Shown here: positions 1 through 12,195 of the stretch, piece after piece
Position numbering within the stretch: the stretch's first letter is position 1
Layout of the letters: each line of letters opens with the position of its first letter
Assembly: GCA_018065025.1 (NCBI GenBank)
Contig: JAGHUB010000104.1
Location: 1-13,964 of the forward strand
Length of the DNA: 13,964 nt
Direction of reading: 5' to 3'
Source: Candidatus Equihabitans merdae
GTDB taxonomy: Bacteria; Bacillota; Clostridia; Lachnospirales; Lachnospiraceae
Notes under the pieces: generated by a model
What the model was told of the DNA's origin: nothing
What the model saw: the letters and a program-made list of their open reading frames with translations, nothing else
Databases searched by the model: none
Made by a program: the position numbers and the translations under genes

Positions 1-972
1 AATATCTACCTGAACGGCACCATGATCGGTTTCACCAAGGAAGAGATCGACGAGCGTCTGGATGATATCTTAAGCTTCGCTGATATCGGTGATTTCATCC
101 ATCAGCCCTGTAAGACTTATTCCAGCGGTATGTTCGTTCGTCTGGCTTTCGCCGTTGCCATCAACATTGATCCGGAGATCCTGATCGTTGACGAAGCCCT
201 GTCAGTTGGTGACGTTTTCTTCCAGGCTAAGTGTTATCACAAGTTTGAAGAATTCAAGAAAGCCGGCAAGACCATCCTGATGGTTTCTCATGACCTTGGT
301 TCCGTTGCCAAGTACTGCGACAGAGTCGTTCTTCTCAACAAGGGCGTTAAGCGCAATGAAGGCGAACCCAAGGAAATCATTGATGAATACAAGCAGATCC
401 TGGTCAATACATCCGACAAGGATGACCGTGCCATGATCAAAGAAGACCTGTCCAGATACCTTAATCCGGCCAATGCCAAGGGCAAATGGTATGCCGACCT
501 GGAGATCAATCCTCAGGTTCTGGATTACGGCGATAAAGCCGCTGAGATCATTGACTTCGCAGTTGTGGATGATAATGGCAAGGTCAACTCAGGTATCATC
601 AAGGGTTCAGATTTCACCATCAAGATGAAGGTGCGCTTCAATGAAGCTATGACAGATCCTCTGTTCTGCTACACCATCAAGGATCCTCAGGGTACTGAGG
701 TCTGCGGTACCAACACCATGCTGGAGCAGATCGATACCGGGGATATGGAGGCAGGCTCCGAGCACGTGGTGGAATTCCGCCAGCGCATGAACCTGCAGGG
801 TCGTACCTATCTGCTGTCACTTGGCGTAGTAGGTTTCGCCCACAATCGCTTTAATGTTTACAACCGCCTGTACGATGTCTGTGACATCAATGTTATTTCA
901 GACAAGAACACAGTCGGCTTCTATGATATCGAATCTACAGTAAGTATTGACGGAGAGGTTCAGAAAAAATGA
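1..972 (+). CDS. ABC transporter ATP-binding protein with Wzt-type C-terminal domain (5' partial)
   Basis: This is the ATPase subunit of an ABC-2 polysaccharide exporter (Wzt/RgpD/TagH class), which powers export of a finished lipid-linked glycan across the cytoplasmic membrane. The reading frame is open from base 1, so the true start and the Walker A motif lie left of the window; the ATG at 22 is internal, because the preceding in-frame residues NIYLNGT fit the family. Visible in the 323 residues: the variant ABC signature YSSGM (40-44) typical of glycan exporters, Walker B ILIVDE (60-65), D-loop LSVGD, and the H-loop MVSHD with H97. After about residue 165 comes a beta-rich extension of some 150 residues that matches the Wzt C-terminal domain, known in E. 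coli O9a to bind the capped glycan end. The permease gene is not in view and probably lies just upstream. The stop overlaps the next start (ATGA). Family is certain; substrate is inferred from neighbours. Confidence 0.93.
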   Translation, partial: NIYLNGTMIGFTKEEIDERLDDILSFADIGDFIHQPCKTYSSGMFVRLAFAVAINIDPEILIVDEALSVGDVFFQAKCYHKFEEFKKAGKTILMVSHDLGSVAKYCDRVVLLNKGVKRNEGEPKEIIDEYKQILVNTSDKDDRAMIKEDLSRYLNPANAKGKWYADLEINPQVLDYGDKAAEIIDFAVVDDNGKVNSGIIKGSDFTIKMKVRFNEAMTDPLFCYTIKDPQGTEVCGTNTMLEQIDTGDMEAGSEHVVEFRQRMNLQGRTYLLSLGVVGFAHNRFNVYNRLYDVCDINVISDKNTVGFYDIESTVSIDGEVQKK

Positions 973-2816
973 TTCTGACAAATCAGCATCCGAAAAGATA
1001 TGGCATCTACGTCTTTTTCGACAAAGGCGGCTTTGTGGATGACTACAACATCGTCTTTCTGGAAGCCTTGAGAAAGGTAACCGATAAACTGCTTGTTATC
1101 GTTAACGGTGAAGCAGACGATGAAGGCATGGCCAAGATGGGTGCCGTAGCCGATGAAGTCATCAAGCGTCCCAACGAAGGCTTTGATATCACAGCCTACA
1201 ATCTGGGTCTGTTCAGAGATGGTTACGAAGCACTTTGTGAATACGATGAAGCCATCGTCTGCAACGGCACAAACTATGGTCCTTTCTTTCCTTTTGAGGA
1301 AATGTTTGATGCCATGGCTGTCAAGGACGTGGACTTCTGGGGCGTTACTGCCTTCCATGAAGTTCCCTTCGATCCCTTCGGCACCATTCGCTACGGCTAT
1401 ATTCCGGAACATGTTCAGTCTTATTTCCAGGTCTATCGTAAGGACTTCATGAAGACAGACGACTTCCGCCTCTGGTGGCAGGAGATGCCTCAGATCACAA
1501 GTTACGGCGAAGCCATTGGTTTCCATGAATCCGTATTTACCAAGGCTATGTCTGACAAGGGATATAAATGGGCTGTCTATGCAGATGCTTCAGATCTTGA
1601 AGGATTCACCTGGGATCCTCTTCGTGACTTCCCTCGTTATCTTATCGAGAAGAAACGCTGCCCCTTTATCAAGCGTCGTTCCTTCTTCCACGATTACGGT
1701 GAAGCCTATGGCAGAAGCGGTGGTGAAGCCACTCGCGAAGCCTTCGAGTACATCCGTGATCATACCGATTACGATACCGACCTGATCTGGCAGAACCTGC
1801 TTCGTACTGAAAACATGGCAGACCTTAAGAAGCGTATGCATCTTAACTATGTCCTGTCCACCAAGGTGCCGGCAGCCGATCGTCATGATCCCAACAAGAA
1901 GATTCAGGTGGTAGATCAGGAAACCAACAAACTGGTTCCCTGTGACCATTCATTTAAAGTGGCCTTGCTTTATCTGATCTACTTCGATGATGAAGCTCCC
2001 TTCTGTGCCCATTATGCTGAGCAGATGCCGGAAGGAACAGACATCTTCATCGCCGTTCCCAGTGAAGAGAAGATGGCCATCGTGGCAGAAGCCTTCAAGC
2101 CCCTGGAAGACAGATACAATGTCCATATTCGTCTGTGGCATAACCGGGGTCGTGATGTCAGCGCTCTTCTGGTCAGCTTCAAAGACATCATCATGGATTA
2201 TGATCTGGTCCTTTCTATGCACGACAAGAAAGTTAATCAGGTCAGCCCCAAGTCCATCGGACATTCCTGGGCTTATATGTGCTTCGAATCATTGGCAGCC
2301 AACAAGGTCTTTGTTGAAAATGTCATTGATCTCTTTGAGAAGAATCCCCGTCTGGGCATGCTGATGCCGCCGGTTCCGGTACATGGACCTTATTTCCCCA
2401 CAACCGGCCGTAATGAATGGGGACTCAATTTCGCTGTTACCAAGCAGCTTCATGAAGATCTGGGTATGACAGTGCCTCTGACAGAAGCCAAAGAACCGGT
2501 AGCTCCTCTGGGTACAGAATTCTGGGTACGTCCCAAGGCCCTGAAGGTCCTCTTTGACAGAGGATGGGAATATGAAGACTTCCCTCCTGAACCCAACCAT
2601 GTCGATGCTACCTTGCTGCATGCTATCGAGCGTCTGTATCCCTACTGCGCTCAGGAAGCCGGTTACTATGCCGGATGGCTGATGCCTGACACTTACGCCA
2701 AGATCCATCTGGACAACTGGCGCTTCCTCAACAGCGGATTGACCAAGGCCGAATCCGAACGAATCGGTACCTGGACAAACTTCCGCGAGTTTATTGATGC
2801 TGTCAAGAATTCATAA
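969..2816 (+). CDS. RgpF-like (rhamnan synthesis protein F family) putative glycosyltransferase, full two-module form
   Basis: A 615-residue RgpF-family protein, associated with assembly of rhamnose-rich cell-wall polysaccharides in streptococci and probably a cytoplasmic or membrane-associated glycosyltransferase. No signal peptide or membrane segment is seen. The start overlaps the ATPase stop as ATGA, with GGAGAGG at 952-958 as ribosome binding site. Two similar halves can be recognised. The N-terminal half has a YGIYVFFD strand, KLLVIVNG, N-E-G-F-D (69-73) and VDFWGVT (121-127). The C-terminal half has a VALLYLIYFD strand, TDIFIAV, N-R-G-R-D (392-396), MHDKK (417-421), LGMLMPPVP and TEFWVRP. 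The N-terminal half closely resembles that of the next gene, including a CPxIKRRxFFxDY block near 231-243. Acceptor and donor cannot be read from sequence; rhamnose is suggested by rfbD in the same locus. Confidence 0.85.
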   Translation: MILTNQHPKRYGIYVFFDKGGFVDDYNIVFLEALRKVTDKLLVIVNGEADDEGMAKMGAVADEVIKRPNEGFDITAYNLGLFRDGYEALCEYDEAIVCNGTNYGPFFPFEEMFDAMAVKDVDFWGVTAFHEVPFDPFGTIRYGYIPEHVQSYFQVYRKDFMKTDDFRLWWQEMPQITSYGEAIGFHESVFTKAMSDKGYKWAVYADASDLEGFTWDPLRDFPRYLIEKKRCPFIKRRSFFHDYGEAYGRSGGEATREAFEYIRDHTDYDTDLIWQNLLRTENMADLKKRMHLNYVLSTKVPAADRHDPNKKIQVVDQETNKLVPCDHSFKVALLYLIYFDDEAPFCAHYAEQMPEGTDIFIAVPSEEKMAIVAEAFKPLEDRYNVHIRLWHNRGRDVSALLVSFKDIIMDYDLVLSMHDKKVNQVSPKSIGHSWAYMCFESLAANKVFVENVIDLFEKNPRLGMLMPPVPVHGPYFPTTGRNEWGLNFAVTKQLHEDLGMTVPLTEAKEPVAPLGTEFWVRPKALKVLFDRGWEYEDFPPEPNHVDATLLHAIERLYPYCAQEAGYYAGWLMPDTYAKIHLDNWRFLNSGLTKAESERIGTWTNFREFIDAVKNS

Positions 2817-2825: not shown

Positions 2826-4499
2826 ATGCTGCTGCAAAAAGATCCTAAACGTTGTGCGATCTTCCTGTTTTACGATCCGCAGGGTGTGGTAGATCGTTAC
2901 ATCATAGAAATGCTGAAGGACATGCGTTCCGATGTCAGCCATATTCTGACGGTGGTCAATGGTTTCGTCAATTCAGAAGGCCGTGCCCTTCTGGAGAAGT
3001 ATTCCGATGAAGTCCTGCTTCACCTGAATGTAGGCTTTGACGTAGGTGGTTACCGGGCCGGTCTCTTCCATATCGGTTTCGAGAAACTCATGGAATACGA
3101 TGAGTTCATGATGCTGAACTACACCTTCTTCGCACCGGTATATTCCTTCAGGGAAATGTTTGCTGAGATGGACAAACGTGATCTGGACTTCTGGGGTATC
3201 ACCCGCCACCACATGGTCAACGGGGATCCCTTCCTGGGCAAGATCAGTTATGGCTATATGCCTAACCATATTAATTCTCACTTTATTGCCATCCGTCGCT
3301 CTATGTTTGAGACGGAAGCTTATCAGAAGTTCATGATCGAACTGAAGAATCCCGAATCCTATGTGGAATCCATCACTTCTTATGAAGCGGTCTTCACAAA
3401 GATCTTCGAAGATCAGGGATTCAAGTGGGATGTTTACGTGGATTCCGACCGTTTCGAAGGCATGTATTTTGCTCCCTTTATGTATGCGGTTTCCGATCTG
3501 ATTGAAGAGAATCGCTGCCCCATCATCAAGCGTCGTAACTTCTTCACCGACTACCTGCCCTTCCTTCAGAATACAGCCGGCGAATCTTCATCCGCCCTGT
3601 ATGAGACACTCCAGGACAAGACAGATTACGACACCACCATTATCTGGGACAATGTACTGCGTCTGCAGAATCAGGCAGATATCCACCAGACCGTGCATCT
3701 GAATTATTTCCCGGATGCAGCCTTCCATGAACGTGATATGAGCTGCGATGGCGAGATCAGCGTCTGTGTCTTTGGTAACGAAGCCCTTTGGGAAGCTCTT
3801 CCCAATTCTTATAAAGAAGCCATTCCCGCCAATGCTTCCCTGCATATGATGGGCATGGTGGATGAAACTGCCGCTCAGTTAAAGATGGCAGGGGAAGTGG
3901 CCGGCAGAAGCCGCTTTACATTGATTATTAACCTGCCGGATATGGCAAAAGAACAGGAACCCAAGTCCAATGCAGCATCCCTGCTTTACAGAGAGCTTGA
4001 GAACCTGTGCGGCACAGAAGCCGTCATTGCCAATATCCTGAAGGAATTTGATAAAGATCAGAGCCTTGGCCTTATGGTTTCACCGGTACCGGATTTTGGC
4101 ATCTACTTTGCTATGCTTGGTGACGGATGGGCCGGACGTTTTGATAAGGTCAAAGAAGCCCTGGCAGCGGCAGAGGTCAATGTGCCTCTTAAACCCAGTC
4201 AGAATCATCCTATATTCCCCATGGGAGGTTCCTTCTGGATTCGTTCCAAGCTCCTGGCCAAGACAGCTCAGGAATTGGAAAATGCTGACAAAGACGATGC
4301 TTTACTGGCCAGATTGATGCTGCCTTACCTGCTGCAGGATAAGCGCTATTTCACCGGTTCATCCTTAAGTACAAGATATGCACCTATTGAGATGACCAAT
4401 CTGGACTACAGTCTGAGAGAAAACAACCGTATGGTCTTCGACAAGTTCGGACCGGATTACTTTGAGATCGAACTGAAGAGGATCAGGAGGGAGGTATGA
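2826..4499 (+). CDS. RgpF-like protein, diverged second paralogue with degenerate C-terminal half
   Basis: A 557-residue paralogue of the preceding gene. The N-terminal half aligns almost throughout: AIFLFYD strand, N-V-G-F-D (68-72), DFWGIT (121-126), SYGYMP, a CPIIKRRNFFTDY block at 231-243 and HLNYF at 291-295. The C-terminal half is shorter and eroded. It keeps LGLMVSPVP (414-422) and SFWIRSK (469-475), which match LGMLMPPVP and TEFWVRPK of the first copy, but where that copy has NRGRD and HDKK this one has no counterpart to the first and NLPDMAKE in place of the second. Most likely the N-terminal module keeps the enzymatic role and the C-terminal one has become structural, or the enzyme works as a partner of the first copy. 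The start has AAGGAG 5 nt upstream; the stop overlaps the next gene. Confident on family, unsure on activity. Confidence 0.82.
   Translation: MLLQKDPKRCAIFLFYDPQGVVDRYIIEMLKDMRSDVSHILTVVNGFVNSEGRALLEKYSDEVLLHLNVGFDVGGYRAGLFHIGFEKLMEYDEFMMLNYTFFAPVYSFREMFAEMDKRDLDFWGITRHHMVNGDPFLGKISYGYMPNHINSHFIAIRRSMFETEAYQKFMIELKNPESYVESITSYEAVFTKIFEDQGFKWDVYVDSDRFEGMYFAPFMYAVSDLIEENRCPIIKRRNFFTDYLPFLQNTAGESSSALYETLQDKTDYDTTIIWDNVLRLQNQADIHQTVHLNYFPDAAFHERDMSCDGEISVCVFGNEALWEALPNSYKEAIPANASLHMMGMVDETAAQLKMAGEVAGRSRFTLIINLPDMAKEQEPKSNAASLLYRELENLCGTEAVIANILKEFDKDQSLGLMVSPVPDFGIYFAMLGDGWAGRFDKVKEALAAAEVNVPLKPSQNHPIFPMGGSFWIRSKLLAKTAQELENADKDDALLARLMLPYLLQDKRYFTGSSLSTRYAPIEMTNLDYSLRENNRMVFDKFGPDYFEIELKRIRREV
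4485..4490 (+). promoter_or_regulatory. Ribosome binding site AGGAGG for the methyltransferase
   Basis: A consensus AGGAGG lies inside the end of the second RgpF-like gene, 5 nt before ATG 4496 and 8 nt before a second in-frame ATG at 4499. Both starts are well placed, so the first methionine could be at either; 4496 gives the ATGA overlap seen at other junctions in this locus. Confidence 0.75.
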
Positions 4500-5431
4500 T
4501 GGCAGAGATGCTGAAAGAAGAGATGATCGGTAAGGTTCATCTTGATTACACCTGGTATAGCGGCAAGGACCTCTATAGTGACGGAGATGAGATGGAGAAT
4601 CTGATCCTGGATATCGTCAAGAACGAAGAGGGTTATGAGTTATACCACAAGGAATATCATAACTGGCCGGTGATGTATCACCTGACCCGTAAACGTGAAA
4701 ACATCTGTCTCCCCATGGAGTTAAATGAAGATGACGAAGTGCTGGAAATCGGTGCCGGTATGGGTGCCGTCACAGGCGCAGTAGCCCGTCAGGTCAAGAG
4801 CGTTGACTGTATCGAACTGTCACGCCGCCGCTCCCTGGTCAATGCTTATCGTCATAAAGATATGGACAACATCAATATCACTGTAGGTAACTTCAAGGAT
4901 ATTGAGATCACCAAGAAGTACGATGTCATCACCCTGATCGGCGTACTGGAATATGCCTGCCACTATGTAGGCGGTGCTACTCCCTACGAAGATTTCCTGA
5001 AGAAGATGGCTGAAAACCTGAAACCCGGTGGTCGTCTCTATATCGCTATTGAAAATAAGATCGGTATCAAGTATTTTGCCGGTTACAACGAAGACCATCT
5101 GGGTCGTCCCTTTGCCGGTCTGGAAGGTTATAAAGACGAAGATTTCGTCCGGACATTTACCAAATCCGAACTGATCGCCCTGCTTGAGAAGAGTGGCTAT
5201 CCTATCCACGACTTCTATTATCCCTTCCCGGATTACAAGCTGCCGCAGGTGATCTTCGATGAAAGCACCATCAAGGATGCCGAGATCGAATTTGACGAAA
5301 TCACCAACTACGATCTGCCTAAGATCGATCTGTTTGCCCAGAATCGTTTCATGGCCAATCTGAAGGGTTCTGACGAGAGATGTCTCTTCAGCAATTCCTT
5401 CCTGGTAGAAGCACGGAGGGAAGACGTATGA
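4496..5431 (+). CDS. Class I SAM-dependent methyltransferase
   Basis: A 311-residue soluble methyltransferase. The Rossmann-fold SAM site is clear: motif I VLEIGAGMGA (82-91), acidic end of beta 2 in VDCIELS (103-109), YDVITLIGVLEY (142-153), and LKPGGRLYIAIENK (175-188). The stretch after it, with KIGIKYFAGYNEDH (188-201), RPFAGLEGY (204-212) and FTKSEL (221-226), is of a type I associate with methyltransferases of Gram-positive polysaccharide loci, where a kinase-like domain may follow in the same polypeptide; that recollection needs a database check. Here the kinase is the next gene, joined by an ATGA overlap. The N-terminal ~75 residues precede the fold. The likely job is methylation of the glycan or of a phosphate on its end, by analogy with WbdD of E. 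coli O9a or the methyltransferase module of Geobacillus WsaE. The fold is certain, the substrate is inferred. Confidence 0.9.
   Translation: MMAEMLKEEMIGKVHLDYTWYSGKDLYSDGDEMENLILDIVKNEEGYELYHKEYHNWPVMYHLTRKRENICLPMELNEDDEVLEIGAGMGAVTGAVARQVKSVDCIELSRRRSLVNAYRHKDMDNINITVGNFKDIEITKKYDVITLIGVLEYACHYVGGATPYEDFLKKMAENLKPGGRLYIAIENKIGIKYFAGYNEDHLGRPFAGLEGYKDEDFVRTFTKSELIALLEKSGYPIHDFYYPFPDYKLPQVIFDESTIKDAEIEFDEITNYDLPKIDLFAQNRFMANLKGSDERCLFSNSFLVEARREDV
5415..5420 (+). promoter_or_regulatory. Ribosome binding site GGAGGG that fixes the kinase start
   Basis: GGAGGG lies 7 nt before ATG 5428, whereas the longer in-frame ATG at 5380 has no such site and would overlap the methyltransferase by about 50 bases. 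This supports 5428 as the start and argues that methyltransferase and kinase are separately initiated proteins rather than one gene broken by a frameshift. Confidence 0.8.
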
Positions 5432-6435
5432 AAAAACTGATGATCAAGTGCTCCGACGAGCGTAATCGTCGTTTCTCCATCATTACCACCATCGCCGAAG
5501 ATCAGGGCAAGAAGATGGTACTGAAAGAGGCTGTTTATCCTCAGGGTCAGGATCATCTTAAGCACACTGCCAATATGCAGTATGCTATTGATGACACCTA
5601 TTCACTGGTTAAGGCCTGTCCGGTCAAGTACGACGGCAAGAAGCTGGTCTTTGACTATCTTGAAGGCAAGACCCTTGAAAGCCAGTATGCCAAGGCCCTT
5701 AAAAACAATGATAAAGAAGGCTTTAAGGCTCTGCTGAAAGAGCATAAGACTTATCTGGAAGCTTCAGATGACAATGATTGCATCTTTGAAAGCACTGATG
5801 GTTTCCATCGCTTCTTCGGTTCCGGTGCTCCTTATCAGGGTAAGCCGGCTTATAAGAAGGCTAACTATGATGCCATCGCCGGCAACATTATGCTGACAGA
5901 TCAGGGTGCTTATTTCATTGATTATGAATGGATGATGGACTTCCCCATGCCCAAGGACATGGTTCTCTATCATTGCATCCGTGACCTCTACTATCATTAC
6001 GATAAGTTGGAAGATTTCTTCCCCCTGGCAGATGCTCTGAAGGAAATTGGTATCACCACAGACACAGCACTGCTTCAGGAGAGCTATGAATATTTCTGGA
6101 ATTACTGCATGTGCGAAGAAGACGGCACCAACTATGCTGTCAGCAAGATCTACTGGCGTGCAGCTACCAGATCTATGAAAGAAATCATCGATGAGAATGT
6201 CTGGATCCATCAGGAGTGGGGGCATTCCGCTGACATGTGGAAGGAAACCTCTGACGAACTCTTCAAGATGCAGGGCAAGCTCATCGACGAGCAGGCTAAG
6301 GTAACCCATCTGGAAGAAGAGTATCAGAAGCTCAACGACGACCGTGATTACTGGAAGAGCCAGCTGATCTATGTCACCTCAGCACGCTCCTATAGAGCAG
6401 TACAGAAATTAAAGAAGGTACTTGGCAGATCATGA
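5428..6435 (+). CDS. Kinase-fold (APH/eukaryotic-like) protein with C-terminal coiled coil
   Basis: A 335-residue protein whose first ~250 residues look like a small-molecule/protein kinase fold. A candidate ATP-contacting lysine is K33 in MVLKEA; the catalytic-loop equivalent is NYDAIAGNIML (146-156), with D148 and N153 at the same D-x4-N spacing as aminoglycoside phosphotransferases, although the usual HG before the Asp is NY here; the metal-binding Asp is D165 in FIDYEW. Residues ~265-312 are charged and heptad-like, a probable coiled coil, followed by a basic tail with SARSYRAVQKLKK (318-330). ATGA overlaps join it to the methyltransferase before and the glycosyltransferase after. This composition matches the kinase and coiled-coil parts of WbdD, which phosphorylates the end of O9a polymannan and sets its length. 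A role in phosphorylating the growing glycan is inferred; a kinase acting on lipid carrier, a free sugar or a protein is not excluded. Confidence 0.78.
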   Translation: MKKLMIKCSDERNRRFSIITTIAEDQGKKMVLKEAVYPQGQDHLKHTANMQYAIDDTYSLVKACPVKYDGKKLVFDYLEGKTLESQYAKALKNNDKEGFKALLKEHKTYLEASDDNDCIFESTDGFHRFFGSGAPYQGKPAYKKANYDAIAGNIMLTDQGAYFIDYEWMMDFPMPKDMVLYHCIRDLYYHYDKLEDFFPLADALKEIGITTDTALLQESYEYFWNYCMCEEDGTNYAVSKIYWRAATRSMKEIIDENVWIHQEWGHSADMWKETSDELFKMQGKLIDEQAKVTHLEEEYQKLNDDRDYWKSQLIYVTSARSYRAVQKLKKVLGRS

Positions 6436-8762
6436 GTGATAAGACTTCTTACGAAGAGCGCTATGAACAACTGAAGAAAGATTATGCTGAACTGTATGAC
6501 AAGTTCATTGAAGTCAGAGAAACAGCTATCGCCAGAGGCGAAGCAGCTGCCCGTTTAGGCGGCGAAAGTGCTGTCCGTCTCTACCGCAAGATGCAGGTCA
6601 AGTCCGGTCATGCCGATCCCCTGCAGGCTCTGCGTCCTCTGCTCAATGAAGCTCAGTCCGGCATTCGCATGCATATCGATAACAAGAATTACCGCAAGGG
6701 CGACCTGACTATCCGTGGCTGGTGTTGGGATCTTAAGGGCGCTAAGCCGGGTATTCTGATCCGTGACCGCAGTAAGGTCCTGGAATTCGTAGAGCATCGT
6801 TATCCCAGAAAAGACGTCAATGAAATGCTTGGTCTGGCTGATGATGTCTGCACCGGTTTCACAGTCCGTGTGGCTTTGAAGGATATTGCCCACAGCCCTA
6901 TTCTGGTGGAATTCGAAAATGAACTGGGCTATGTTCCTGTGGAAGTGGAAGTGCTGCTGTCTGAAAAAGAAAGACAGGCTTACCTGGATGGCAATGCTCA
7001 TCCGGTCTATGCCTATGACAGCGCCGGTTACGATGACTGGATCCGTGATCGACTGGTCACAGAAGAAGAACTGGCTGCCCAGAGAGCAGAAGTCTTCCCC
7101 TACAGCCCCAAGATCAGTATCTGCATCCCCCTTTACAACACCAAGCCCCAGTTCCTGAAGGAGCTGATGGACGGTCTGCTGGGTCAGTCTTACAGCAACA
7201 TCGAGATCTGCCTGGCTGACGGTTCTCCGGAAGATGATGTGGAACGTGAAGTCCGCGAAAAATATCTTCAGGATCCTCGTGTTGTCTACAAGCGCCTGGA
7301 GAAAAATGAAGGTATCTCCGGCAACACCAATGCCTCTTTCGAAATGGCAAGCGGTGATTTCATCATGCTCAGCGACCATGATGACGTGGTAGAAAAAGAC
7401 GCCTGTTATGAAATCGTTAAGATGCTTAACAGCGATGAAAACATGGATGTGGTCTACACCGATGAAGACAAGATCATGCTGACAGAGGGTGTTTACTATA
7501 GCCCCAACTTTAAGCCTGATTTTGACATCGACCTGCTTAGATCCAATAACTACATTACCCACATCTTCGTGGTCAGAAAGTCCATCGTGGATGAAGTGGG
7601 TGGCGAAGATTCTTCTTATGACGGTGCTCAGGATTACGATTTCATTCTGCGCTGCTGCGAGAAGGCCAGAAGCATCGGTCATGTACCCAAGTTCCTTTAT
7701 CATTGGCGTGCCCATGAGTCTTCCACAGCCGGCAATCCGGAAAGCAAGATGTATGCTTACGAGAACGGCCGCCGTGCTATTGAATCTCATTACAAACGCT
7801 GTGGTATTGATGCAGAAGTTGAACTGGCTGAGGATATCGGCAGTTATCGCACCACATACCGCATTCAGGGCAATCCCCTGGTATCCATCATTATCCCTAA
7901 CAAGGATCTGAAGGATACACTGAAACGAGCCGTAGATTCTATTCTTGAGAAATCTACCTACACCAATTATGAAATCGTCATTGCGGAAAATAATTCCACT
8001 GAGCAGGAGACTTTCGACTATTACAAGGAAGTCCAGGCTGCCCATGAAAATGTTCGTGTGGTGACATGGCAGGATGCTTTCAATTATTCTGCCATCAATA
8101 ACTTCGCAGCAAGAGAAGCCAAGGGTGATTATTATATCTTCCTGAACAATGACACAGAAGTCATCACAGATCGCTGGATCGAAGAGATGCTGGGTTATTG
8201 CCAGAGAGAAGATGTGGGTATCTGCGGCGCCCGCCTTTATTATCCGGATGACAGACTGCAGCACTGCGGTATCGTGGTTGGTATCGGTGGTATTGCCGGT
8301 CATATCTGTCACCTTGAGAAGCGTGGCAACGGCGGTTACTTCGGTCGTGTTGTTAAGACACAGGATATCAGTGCCGTAACAGCTGCCTGCCTGATGATCT
8401 CCAAGAAGGTCTTCGACGAAGTCAATGGCTTCGATGAAGAACTGGCTGTAGCTTACAACGACGTAGATCTGTGCCTGAAGGTTCGAGAAAAGGGTTACCT
8501 GGTTGTCTACAATGCCTGGTGCCTGCTGTATCATTATGAATCTCTCTCCAGAGGTTCCGATGATGCCGCTATCGATGAAAAGAAGCATGCTCGTCAGATG
8601 GCAGAAGCTGCCATCCTGAAGTCTCATTTCCCGGAGATCTTCGAAAAAGGCGATCCCTACTTCAATCCCAACCTGGATTACGATGCAGCGGATTATGTCC
8701 TTAAAGGAACCATCCCGCCCAACTATTCAACGCTGGAGAAGAAGCGCGAAGAAAAGGCATAA
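6432..8762 (+). CDS. Double-module family 2 glycosyltransferase with N-terminal coiled coil and GW beta module
   Basis: A 776-residue cytoplasmic glycosyltransferase. Order: charged helix/coiled coil at 1-35; basic helix near 45-57; a beta-type module at ~80-178 with LTIRGW (92-97), RKDV (126-129) and TGFTV (141-145); first GT2 module at ~227-450 starting KISICIPLYN, with SDHDD (314-318), YTDED (342-346) and GAQDYDF (398-404); second GT2 module at ~483-735 starting LVSIIIPNKD, with FLNNDTE (570-576), QHCGIVVG (610-617), YNDVDL (675-680) and HYES (701-704). Two active GT2 sites suggest that one chain adds two sugars or acts as a polymerase building a two-sugar repeat; rhamnosyl transfer is plausible because rfbD is close by. 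Its ATG overlaps the kinase stop; AAGAAGG at 6412-6418 is a distant ribosome binding site, so translation probably relies on coupling. No membrane segment. It is a paralogue of the next gene. Confidence 0.9.
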   Translation: MSDKTSYEERYEQLKKDYAELYDKFIEVRETAIARGEAAARLGGESAVRLYRKMQVKSGHADPLQALRPLLNEAQSGIRMHIDNKNYRKGDLTIRGWCWDLKGAKPGILIRDRSKVLEFVEHRYPRKDVNEMLGLADDVCTGFTVRVALKDIAHSPILVEFENELGYVPVEVEVLLSEKERQAYLDGNAHPVYAYDSAGYDDWIRDRLVTEEELAAQRAEVFPYSPKISICIPLYNTKPQFLKELMDGLLGQSYSNIEICLADGSPEDDVEREVREKYLQDPRVVYKRLEKNEGISGNTNASFEMASGDFIMLSDHDDVVEKDACYEIVKMLNSDENMDVVYTDEDKIMLTEGVYYSPNFKPDFDIDLLRSNNYITHIFVVRKSIVDEVGGEDSSYDGAQDYDFILRCCEKARSIGHVPKFLYHWRAHESSTAGNPESKMYAYENGRRAIESHYKRCGIDAEVELAEDIGSYRTTYRIQGNPLVSIIIPNKDLKDTLKRAVDSILEKSTYTNYEIVIAENNSTEQETFDYYKEVQAAHENVRVVTWQDAFNYSAINNFAAREAKGDYYIFLNNDTEVITDRWIEEMLGYCQREDVGICGARLYYPDDRLQHCGIVVGIGGIAGHICHLEKRGNGGYFGRVVKTQDISAVTAACLMISKKVFDEVNGFDEELAVAYNDVDLCLKVREKGYLVVYNAWCLLYHYESLSRGSDDAAIDEKKHARQMAEAAILKSHFPEIFEKGDPYFNPNLDYDAADYVLKGTIPPNYSTLEKKREEKA

Positions 8763-8785
8763 AAGCTCTAATAATAACTGACAAT

Positions 8786-8790
8786 GGAGG
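8786..8790 (+). promoter_or_regulatory. Ribosome binding site GGAGG that moves the start of the second double-GT2 gene
   Basis: GGAGG ends 5 nt before ATG 8796. The longer in-frame ATG at 8784 lies directly against this site (ATGGAGG) and has no ribosome binding site of its own, so 8796 is preferred. The 33-nt spacer after the previous stop (8763-8795) is AT-rich and shows no hairpin or promoter I could support. Confidence 0.8.
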
Positions 8791-8795
8791 TTTCC

Positions 8796-11225
8796 ATGGT
8801 TGTCAACAATGGATTCTTAATTAAAAATGACCGTTTTTCCATGACGGATGATACTTGTTATATCCTGCGGGGCTGGTTAGCTCCCCGTACAGAGCTGTCA
8901 GCTTCTATGGATGGCAAGCCCTTCCCTCTTAAGGTGGAAAGAGTCACGGAAAATGTGGATGAACGTTACGGCGGTGCCGAAACTAAGGTTATTTTCCGCA
9001 TCGATGAATACGTTCAGAATCACAAAGCTCTCAAGGTCTATACCACAAGAGATGGTGAGAAGCGTCTCTGCTTTGCCATCAGTGTCAAAGATCTGATGGA
9101 AAAACAGGAACCGGTGAAGGTCTTTATCGATGACTATTCAGTCAATACCAAGGACGGTTATTTCCGTCTTCAGGGCTGGGCTGCCGGTCATGAAGATGTC
9201 ACTGTCTCAGTGGCTACCACAGACGGCAAGACACCTGAAGGTAAAGTTGAGAAATACACCCGTCTGGATGTAGTGGATCTGTTTGATGAGTACCCGGTTG
9301 GCGAAAACTGCGGTTTCCACATCGAGCTGCGTCCTGTTCCGGATCTGCCGGTAGTAGTCACTTTCCGCTCCGGTGAAGATGTGATCACCCGCACCTATAA
9401 GACCAGCGCTTCTGCTGTTAAGATGCAGAACTACGGCCGTCTTATGAAGAAGGGTACCGAGTATCTTCGTTACAAGGGTCCCAAGGCTTTGGCCAAGAAG
9501 ACTTATGACAAGCTCTTCAATCCGGTTTATAAGCCCATCATTTACACCGATTGGATCAAGAAGCATCTGCCTTCAGACCGTGAACTGGCCAGACAGAAAG
9601 CCGAATCCTTCGAGATGAACACACGTTTCTCCATCGTAGTGCCTCTTTACAAGACACCGGAAGAATTCCTGGTTCAGCTGGTGGATTCAGTGAAAGCCCA
9701 GAGCTATGGCAACTGGGAGCTAGTCCTTTCAGACGGCAGCGGTGAGAACAGTCCTCTGGATGGCATTCTGACCAAGCTGGAAGAATCCGATGCCCGCATC
9801 AAGGTGCTTCGCAATAAGAAGCAGCTGCACATTGCGGAAAATACTAATGCCGCCATCGCTGCAGCCACCGGCGATTTCATTGTATTCGCCGACCATGATG
9901 ATCTGCTGACACCCAATGCCTTGTTTGAAAATGCTGCTGTGATCCGCCGTCATCCCGATGCGGAAATGATCTACAGTGATGAAGACAAGATCGGGGTAGG
10001 CGAGAAATACATGCAGCCTAACCTGAAGCCTGATTACGATCCTGACCTGCTGTGTTCAGTGAATTACATCTGTCACCTGCTGGCGGTCAAGAAAGACCTG
10101 CTTAATCGCGTAGGTCTCCTTCGTCCCGCATTTGACGGTGCCCAGGATTATGATTTCGTCCTGCGCTGCACAGAAGAGACCAAGGCAATTTACCATATTC
10201 CCAAGATCCTCTATCATTGGCGTTTCTTTGACGGCAGCACTGCCGCCAATCCGGAAAGCAAGACCTATGCCTTTGAAGCCGGTAAGAGAGCCATTGAAGC
10301 TCATTATGAGAGACTGGGTCTGCCGGGCAAGGTTGAGATGGGTCCCTTCCCTGGTATCTATCGCACCACCTGGCATTATGAAGATGATCCCATGGTTTCC
10401 ATCCTGATCCCCAACAAGGATCACACAGAAGACCTGGATGTCTGCCTGAAGAGTATCGACAGAGGACGGGTATATCCCAACCTTGAGATCATTATTATTG
10501 AAAATAACAGCACAGAACCGGAGACATTTGCTTATTACGAAGAATTAAAGAAGCGTGATGAGCGCGTCAAGGTCATTACCTATGATGAAGGCGTCTTTAA
10601 CTTCTCAGCCATCAACAATCTGGGCGCTAAAGAAGCCAAGGGCGACTACCTCTTCCTGCTCAACAACGATACCGAATTCATCAGTGAAGACGTGATCGGA
10701 GAAATGGTAGATTACTGTCGTCGTGACGATGTAGGTGCTGTGGGTGCACTCTTGTATTATAATGATAATACCATTCAGCATGCCGGTGTTATCGTTGGCT
10801 GGGGCGGCGTAGCCGGTCACGCCTTCGTTAACCAGAAGCGTGGTGAGACAGGTTATATGCACCGTATCATCTGCCAGCAGGATTACAGCGCTGTTACAGC
10901 TGCCTGCATGATGGTAAAACGCAGTGTCTTTGAAGAAATCGGCGGCTTCTCAGAGGAGCTGGCTGTAGCCTTCAACGATATTGACCTGTGCATGAAGATA
11001 AGAGAAGCAGGCTATCTGATCGTTTATGATCCCTACTGCGAACTCTATCATTATGAATCTAAATCAAGAGGTCTGGATCAGGGCAACCCCGAGAAGGTAC
11101 GCCGCTTCCAGAAAGAGATGGCCATCTTCCAGAAGAAATGGCCCGAGATCCTGAGAGACGGAGATCCTTATTACAATCCCAACTTCTCCATGATTACACA
11201 GGATTTTTCTTTGAAACATAACTAA
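8796..11225 (+). CDS. Double-module family 2 glycosyltransferase with two N-terminal GW beta modules
   Basis: An 809-residue paralogue of the preceding gene. Two beta-type modules come first: one around residues 5-85 with YILRGW (22-27), and one around 108-195 with FRLQGW (123-128), RLDV (156-159) and CGFHI (172-176). A basic, lysine-rich linker at ~209-258 follows. The first GT2 module begins at ~278 (FSIVVPLYK) with ADHDD (365-369), YSDED (393-397) and GAQDYDF (448-454). The second begins at ~533 (MVSILIPNKD) with LLNNDTE (621-627), QHAGVIVG (661-668), FNDIDL (726-731) and HYES (752-755). All acidic motifs expected for GT2 are present in both modules, so both should be active. It lacks the N-terminal coiled coil of its sibling. 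It probably extends or branches the same glycan; the sugars cannot be read from sequence. The start is set by GGAGG at 8786-8790. Confidence 0.9.
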   Translation: MVVNNGFLIKNDRFSMTDDTCYILRGWLAPRTELSASMDGKPFPLKVERVTENVDERYGGAETKVIFRIDEYVQNHKALKVYTTRDGEKRLCFAISVKDLMEKQEPVKVFIDDYSVNTKDGYFRLQGWAAGHEDVTVSVATTDGKTPEGKVEKYTRLDVVDLFDEYPVGENCGFHIELRPVPDLPVVVTFRSGEDVITRTYKTSASAVKMQNYGRLMKKGTEYLRYKGPKALAKKTYDKLFNPVYKPIIYTDWIKKHLPSDRELARQKAESFEMNTRFSIVVPLYKTPEEFLVQLVDSVKAQSYGNWELVLSDGSGENSPLDGILTKLEESDARIKVLRNKKQLHIAENTNAAIAAATGDFIVFADHDDLLTPNALFENAAVIRRHPDAEMIYSDEDKIGVGEKYMQPNLKPDYDPDLLCSVNYICHLLAVKKDLLNRVGLLRPAFDGAQDYDFVLRCTEETKAIYHIPKILYHWRFFDGSTAANPESKTYAFEAGKRAIEAHYERLGLPGKVEMGPFPGIYRTTWHYEDDPMVSILIPNKDHTEDLDVCLKSIDRGRVYPNLEIIIIENNSTEPETFAYYEELKKRDERVKVITYDEGVFNFSAINNLGAKEAKGDYLFLLNNDTEFISEDVIGEMVDYCRRDDVGAVGALLYYNDNTIQHAGVIVGWGGVAGHAFVNQKRGETGYMHRIICQQDYSAVTAACMMVKRSVFEEIGGFSEELAVAFNDIDLCMKIREAGYLIVYDPYCELYHYESKSRGLDQGNPEKVRRFQKEMAIFQKKWPEILRDGDPYYNPNFSMITQDFSLKHN

Positions 11226-11277: not shown

Positions 11278-12195
11278 ATGAGAGTATTTGTAACAGGTGT
11301 AGCCGGTCAGCTTGGCCATGACGTTGTCAACGAACTGGTAAAGAGAGGCTATGAAGCTGTAGGTACTGACCTGGCAGCAGAGTATACCGGCGTACAGGAT
11401 GGTACAGCTGTAACCACAGCTCCTTATGTAGGACTGGATATCACAGATGCTAAGCGTGTTGATGAGATCATCACAGAAGCCGGCGTGGATGCCGTTATTC
11501 ACTGCGCAGCCTGGACAGCTGTAGATAAGGCAGAAGAGTGCGAAGATCTGGTTCGCAAGATCAATGCCGGCGGTACAGAGAATATCGCCAAGGTTTGTAA
11601 GAAGCTGGACATCCCCATGATGTATTTCTCTACCGACTATGTCTTTGACGGACAGGGCACACGTCCCTGGGAACCGGAAGATGCCTATGCACCTCTGGGC
11701 GCTTACGGCCGCACCAAAGCTGAAGGCGAACAGGCAGTTAAGGACAATCTGGAGAAGTATTTCATTCTTCGTATTGCCTGGGTATTCGGCATCAACGGTA
11801 AGAACTTTATCAAGACTATGCTGAATCTGGCTAAGACCCACGATACACTGCGTGTCGTTAACGATCAGATCGGTAACCCCACCTATACCTATGACTTGGC
11901 TCGTCTGGTAGTGGATATGATCGTCTCCGATAAGTATGGTATCTACCATGTCACAAACGAAGGTGAATCTATCTCCTGGTATGATTTCGCCTGTGCCATC
12001 ATGAAAGAAGGCGGCGCCGATCATGTGACAGTGAACCCCTGCACATCTGCAGAATACGGTGCTCAGGCCGTTCGCCCTTACAATAGCCGTATGGACCGCT
12101 CCAAAATCGCAGCCATGGGCTTCGAACCCCTGCCCACCTGGCAGGATGCTCTTTCACGTTATGTGAAGATCCTGAAAGAGACAGGTGCCATCTGA
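11278..12195 (+). CDS. rfbD: dTDP-4-dehydrorhamnose reductase
   Basis: RfbD/RmlD, 305 residues, a cytoplasmic short-chain dehydrogenase/reductase that makes the last step of dTDP-L-rhamnose synthesis: NAD(P)H-dependent reduction of dTDP-4-dehydro-L-rhamnose. Visible: nucleotide-binding GVAGQLG (7-13), HCAAWTAVDKAE (75-86), STDYVFDG (118-125) with the catalytic Thr at 119, the YxxxK pair Y143 and K147 in YGRTKAEGE, RIAWVFG (165-171) and NDQIGNPTYTYDLA (195-208), all diagnostic of the family. Length is normal (about 280-305). The other three pathway enzymes (RfbA, RfbB, RfbC) are not in this window and may lie nearby or elsewhere. Its presence points to rhamnose in the glycan made by the upstream transferases. 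It sits 52 nt after the previous gene, so it is probably in the same transcript or has a weak promoter of its own. Confidence 0.96.
   Translation: MRVFVTGVAGQLGHDVVNELVKRGYEAVGTDLAAEYTGVQDGTAVTTAPYVGLDITDAKRVDEIITEAGVDAVIHCAAWTAVDKAEECEDLVRKINAGGTENIAKVCKKLDIPMMYFSTDYVFDGQGTRPWEPEDAYAPLGAYGRTKAEGEQAVKDNLEKYFILRIAWVFGINGKNFIKTMLNLAKTHDTLRVVNDQIGNPTYTYDLARLVVDMIVSDKYGIYHVTNEGESISWYDFACAIMKEGGADHVTVNPCTSAEYGAQAVRPYNSRMDRSKIAAMGFEPLPTWQDALSRYVKILKETGAI

Follow-up and report, generated by a model that had tools for sequence, protein, structure and literature searches.

How chain growth is stopped in the rhamnans of gut and rumen Clostridia is a little-studied question, and it is raised by a locus of Candidatus Equihabitans merdae (assembly GCA_018065025.1), in which genes for a class I S-adenosylmethionine (SAM) methyltransferase (MT) and a kinase-fold protein (KIN) stand among genes for polysaccharide synthesis and export. 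The stretch of DNA analyzed, referred to as the window, is one whole contig of 13,964 nucleotides (JAGHUB010000104.1; C424) of a 1.86-Mb draft genome with a completeness of 97.97%. Herein, we propose, with a probability of roughly three in four, that MT and KIN each supply one catalytic half of a phosphate or methyl-phosphate chain terminator of the Klebsiella pneumoniae O7 ORF6 type, present in a Clostridial lineage with its modules distributed over translationally coupled genes. The original prediction, made from the sequence alone, described an ATGA overlap between the two genes in one operon with a Wzt-type C-terminal domain, and this observation was confirmed. The role suggested for the pair, a chain terminator, is now supported as probable, and the rhamnose locus with a cap-binding-type Wzt is likewise supported.

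The O7 ORF6 protein has been described by Kelly et al. (2024, PMC11231755) as a methyltransferase, an unannotated AmiN-like kinase domain, an Ig-like domain, a coiled coil and two GT2 domains, the product being methyl-phosphate on position 3 of the terminal rhamnose. In that report, the D441A variant showed no phosphorylation in vitro and exported polysaccharide was lost in vivo; AmiN was the closest structure to the kinase, which the authors state to differ from the kinase of WbdD (PMC11231755). The SAM-site residues are numbered there as Y28, Y66, G91, G93, E112 and Y158, and the orthologues named belong to alpha- and gammaproteobacteria, cyanobacteria and a Methanoculleus, with a flexible distribution of modules (PMC11231755). 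A plasmid search with a fused MT-KIN relative returned a 1457-aa protein of Pseudomonas asturiensis and a 649-aa protein of Citrobacter braakii, both directly following ABC permease and ATPase genes; a third match, from Azospirillum (20% of the query, E 0.06), was not used. The Pseudomonas protein (L079, 7920-12293) carries all six O7 methyltransferase residues at identical numbers and its kinase Asp at position 443, compared with 441 in O7, and from this numbering and its architecture we infer that it is O7-type; it served as the stand-in for O7 ORF6. In both plasmid loci (pCC1524 of P. asturiensis, L079; pF217-3 of C. braakii, L080), wzm and wzt are directly followed by an O7-type methyltransferase-kinase gene of predicted function, and rmlBACD genes are carried in the Citrobacter locus; unlike in the window, the methyltransferase and kinase are fused. 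The Citrobacter gene had no blastn match in 20,395 E. coli records, and tblastn of plasmids with the Citrobacter protein returned nothing beyond the Pseudomonas and Citrobacter records.

Several results connect the window with this type, and on sequence evidence, obtained through the stand-in, both catalytic halves are kin to the O7-type family. First, MT matched the Pseudomonas protein with 36.9% identity over 290 aa (E 7e-54), and Y27, Y61, G86, G88, E107 and Y153 of MT are the counterparts of the six O7 ORF6 residues. Second, the structure of KIN predicted with AlphaFold2 (AF2) is a kinase fold, with APH-type proteins as the best structural matches in Foldseek and VIA-align (best 50 matches listed in each), and the residues K33, D148, N153 and D165 named in the original prediction are kept in 61, 60, 61 and 62 of 62 KIN domains, respectively; a helical, basic tail is likewise supported, with a long helix at residues 267-317 of the model. 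Third, a profile-profile comparison of 139 Clostridial KIN stretches with 122 Gram-negative O7-type kinase stretches gave a probability of 97.7% (E 2e-12, 196 columns), compared with at most 1.4% in 11 control comparisons, of which seven had KIN and four the Gram-negative kinase as the counterpart. All 122 Gram-negative and 123 of the 139 Clostridial stretches carry the pattern D....N, then D or E.EW, and 131 of the latter fit a looser pattern, leaving eight without even the loose kinase motif. The neighboring proteins agree: the first GT2-GT2 protein matched the GT2 part of the Pseudomonas protein with 40% over 543 aa (E 3e-117), the second matched that protein with 42% over 566 aa (E 2e-135), and the Wzt_C domain matched the Wzt encoded in the Pseudomonas O7-type locus with 27.7% over 148 aa (E 7e-16).

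Less was gained from searches of known structures. The KIN sequence alone gave no meaningful match among PDB chains; against PDB sequences, the KIN profile (A3) gave weak matches only, mostly coiled coils, and the MT-KIN profile (A2) matched methyltransferases and coiled coils (P0011, a chimeric 248-aa fragment, was included in profile set A1 and excluded from A2 and A3; P0005 was excluded from A2). The weak Pfam and NCBIfam matches of KIN would fit a mere coiled-coil protein, and this candidate was ruled out by the fold and the motif.

Thus, the window possesses a methyltransferase with the named SAM-site residues and an APH/AmiN-type kinase with the catalytic Asp and metal-site Asn/Asp, and it shares with O7 ORF6 the methyltransferase family, the kinase type, a GT2 pair and a cluster with Wzm/Wzt and rhamnose genes. 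The order of O7 modules, judged through the stand-in, is the order of the three window genes for MT, KIN with its helical tail, and GT2-GT2. Unlike in O7 ORF6, these modules are spread over three overlapping genes, the operon additionally encodes another GT2-GT2 protein and two RgpF proteins, and the lineage is Clostridial, in contrast with the orthologues named for O7. MT and KIN are encoded by two genes rather than one; since the module distribution is reported to be flexible, the single polypeptide was treated as a variant rather than a defining trait, and the window was filed as a split variant.

The distribution of KIN and the company of the gene were also considered. KIN relatives were observed in 46 of 99 near relatives (own genome included); in the genomes sampled from the class and the phylum they numbered 25 of 391 and 8 of 398, respectively, and 13 named loci with KIN relatives are labeled Lachnospiraceae, Clostridiales or Fusicatenibacter. 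The 62 KIN places compared come from 60 stretches, 34 from the near-relative search (34 of the 46 matching genomes, window included, leaving out 12 matching genomes and two second places) and 26 from the class search (24 matching genomes besides the window's own, of which two contribute a second place); new matches of the phylum search were left out. Gene order is conserved: MT and KIN form one protein in 23 places and lie side by side in 33 (together 56), and MT is absent from six. A quick tree of these places, with several weak forks and long branches, requires a minimum of five switches between the fused and the split form. The original prediction that the pair is the split form of something fused elsewhere was borne out within the genus of the window, where a one-chain MT-KIN-helix protein of 670-679 aa is encoded in three genomes (L040, L041 and L045). 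Wzt_C is present in 26 of the 34 and 21 of the 26 fetched stretches, some of the remainder being short contigs. In protein searches, the best 120 of 477 matches to a fused query all have MT and KIN, and the best 120 of 1,249 in a second search are also fused; because the query was fused, these figures are no measure of fusion frequency.

Some relatives show other arrangements. A 1457-aa MT-KIN-GT2-GT2 chain in the window's genus (L056, 4060-8430) matches the Pseudomonas O7-type protein in module order and approximately in length. An extra KIN-helix copy lacking its own MT follows two RgpF-type genes in L043 (7901-9013) and L044 (7897-9009), also of this genus, approximately 1.7 kb ahead of the Wzt that begins a full Wzt-MT-KIN-GT2 set of that cluster; the two kinases of this locus possibly share one methyltransferase. 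Short MT-KIN-helix fusions of 551-595 aa (L097, 4748-6400; L098, 4643-6316; L099, 4849-6633; L105, 4635-6305) have a degenerate SAM-binding glycine loop and a largely kept kinase motif, and L099 has an additional separate, better-matching MT gene adjoining its Wzt. KIN is fused to an RgpF domain in L060 (6433-9960, MT included) and L088 (1924-5457, MT not included), a further tie of the kinase to rhamnan synthesis.

Several observations weigh against the assignment to the O7 type. Sequence kinship with O7 ORF6 is seen through the Pseudomonas stand-in in place of the O7 sequence. The close KIN subgroup of the window alone reached 62.7% against the Gram-negative profile (E 7e-5, 123 columns), and pairwise BLAST of the window KIN with the stand-in gave no match, so that KIN is linked to O7 by way of the Clostridial family at large. 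The aligned column of the Gram-negative set shows no conservation of the N-lobe Lys that is nearly invariant in Clostridial KIN (61 of 62), with Arg in 50 and Gln in 45 of 122 sequences, and Glu replaces the second metal-site Asp in the Citrobacter protein. The heptad test of the tail gave p 0.011 in the window KIN and 0.85 in the fused relative L076, a weak signal. Finally, the six places without an adjoining MT and the four degenerate SAM loops indicate that the methyl step is not universal; such relatives suggest phosphate-only capping in some lineages. A different N-lobe Lys, residue 344 of the Pseudomonas protein, is kept in all 122 Gram-negative kinases.

Among other explanations, KIN and MT might decorate the polymer elsewhere, at side chains, a linker or a phosphodiester attachment, or might modify a small precursor, with no end cap formed. 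We consider this unlikely, as the KIN profile is kin to a kinase shown to act on terminal rhamnose, and as KIN is constantly accompanied by MT and usually also by a Wzt that carries a cap-binding-type domain. It is also conceivable that the two enzymes act unlinked, KIN alone adding a phosphate cap and MT methylating a sugar hydroxyl. A precedent for the latter is WsaE of the Geobacillus stearothermophilus S-layer glycan, by which a capped rhamnan with a Wzm/Wzt system is already known in Gram-positives (PMC2943079). WsaE resembles the window in combining a methyltransferase with two rhamnosyltransferase domains and in a terminal methyl cap, in the window a predicted one; it differs in that the cap is 2-O-methyl and none of the three reported domains is a kinase (PMC2943079), whereas the kinase-fold protein coupled to MT has its catalytic residues intact. 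The KIN genes lacking an adjoining MT, and the degenerate SAM loops beside a largely kept kinase motif, would also fit unlinked action. However, MT falls in the O7-type methyltransferase family, the characterized member of which methylates phosphate, and the two domains are fused in more than a third of the places (23 of 62), which makes unlinked action distinctly unlikely.

The comparison with WbdD, to which the original prediction likened the pair, gave a divided result. WbdD of E. coli O9a and K. pneumoniae O3 shares with MT and KIN the order of methyltransferase, kinase and helical tail and the same predicted chemistry (PMC3482155); unlike them, it is one polypeptide that acts on a mannose polymer with a eukaryotic-type, Src/ROCK-like kinase (PMC3482155), and it has no sequence-profile match to KIN. 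The KIN and MT-KIN profiles did not find WbdD among PDB sequences, although distant kinship would still be compatible with a missing match. Nor was it among the best 50 matches of KIN in Foldseek and VIA-align or the best 50 of the fused model in VIA-align, absences that exclude nothing. The model of the fused relative L076 (pLDDT 77.9, pTM 0.68) placed WbdD structures 4azs at rank 21 (E 3.1e-8, 579 columns) and 4ax8 at rank 37 (603 columns) of the best 50 Foldseek matches, the only alignments among these long enough for both domains. Together, the fold layout and the sequence results indicate a pair that is like WbdD in layout and, in sequence, kin of the O7 type. The domain order implied by "WbdD-like" stood and the kinship was not supported, O7 ORF6 being the nearest characterized relative. 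That the pair descends from WbdD itself and was split into two genes is very improbable in spite of the shared order and the two Foldseek matches, considering the profile searches, the APH-type kinase, the poor superposition of L076 (root-mean-square deviation 17.6 with 4azs and 21.2 with 4ax8) and the sequence kinship with the O7 type.

The features of the window are listed in the table below. ATGA overlaps were read at four junctions (Wzt/RgpF, RgpF/MT, MT/KIN and KIN/GT2), and the start only of a YfhO membrane protein follows RmlD on the + strand at the window end. The C-terminal domain of Wzt weakly matched the Wzt structure 2r5o (E 0.012). An ABC-2 permease (Wzm) and RmlC precede Wzt in the relative L067, and the second RgpF gene occupies two adjoining open reading frames in L076 (5207-5905 and 5905-6927). 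The N-terminal 215-232 residues, approximately, of the first GT2 protein (window 6432-7127) have no Pfam match and may be the counterpart of the Ig-like domain that lies between kinase and GT2 in O7 ORF6.

Table. Features of the window with their positions and the basis of each assignment.
Feature	Positions	Strand	Basis and remarks
Wzt, ATPase of polysaccharide ABC exporter	1..969	+	5' truncated at contig edge; C-terminal Wzt_C (cap-binding-type), Pfam Wzt_C E 4.6e-38
RgpF-family protein	969..2816	+	Pfam RgpF E 1.8e-181
Second RgpF-family protein	2826..4499	+	Pfam RgpF E 2.1e-98; best match to N-terminal half of model
MT, class I SAM methyltransferase, O7 ORF6 type	4496..5431	+	Pfam; match to Pseudomonas O7-type protein; SAM-site residues
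KIN, APH-type kinase domain (approximately residues 1-235) with helical, basic tail	5428..6435	+	AF2 model; fold matches; catalytic residues; profile match to O7-type kinases
ATGA stop/start overlap, MT/KIN	5428..5431	+	Read in sequence
First GT2-GT2 protein, overlaps KIN	6432..8762	+	Pfam Glycos_transf_2; similarity to Pseudomonas GT2 part
Second GT2-GT2 protein	8784..11225	+	Pfam; similarity to same Pseudomonas O7-type protein
RmlD, dTDP-4-dehydrorhamnose reductase (rhamnose donor)	11278..12195	+	NCBIfam TIGR01214, above its cut-off

We propose the following course of events for an O7-type terminator in this operon. In the cytoplasm, the rhamnosyltransferases, namely the two GT2-GT2 and two RgpF proteins, would extend a rhamnose-containing chain linked to a lipid. 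KIN, which its basic tail probably keeps at the membrane, would phosphorylate the non-reducing terminal rhamnose, and MT would methylate the phosphate thus added. The cap would stop chain growth, and the C-terminal domain of Wzt would recognize it and permit export; such recognition by Wzt domains has been reported in other cap-binding systems (PMC9445017). Coupled translation would keep the MT, KIN and GT2 parts in step. For the window, the substrate and the product are inferred, as are membrane anchoring, the control of chain length and a complex of MT with KIN.

A literature search of open-licence papers did not turn up a methyltransferase-kinase terminator in any Gram-positive organism. 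Since the KIN family carries no kinase label in Pfam or NCBIfam, loci of this kind are now read only as "methyltransferase" or "glycosyltransferase", and the present analysis names the kinase family. A broader proposition, for which we regard the odds as even, is that Lachnospiraceae license the export of a surface rhamnan by a phosphate or methyl-phosphate cap and that, in the lineage of the window, the terminator works in trans, a free methyltransferase joining a membrane-tethered kinase whose tail determines the spacing to the polymerase. Genetic separation of capping, methylation and measuring could then be expected, and the modules would have repeatedly fused and parted. If true, the split would allow phosphorylation, methylation and tail length to be removed separately, which is impossible in one-chain enzymes, and cap-licensed export by phosphate or methyl-phosphate would extend from the O antigens of Gram-negative bacteria to the rhamnans on the surface of Clostridia from gut and rumen.

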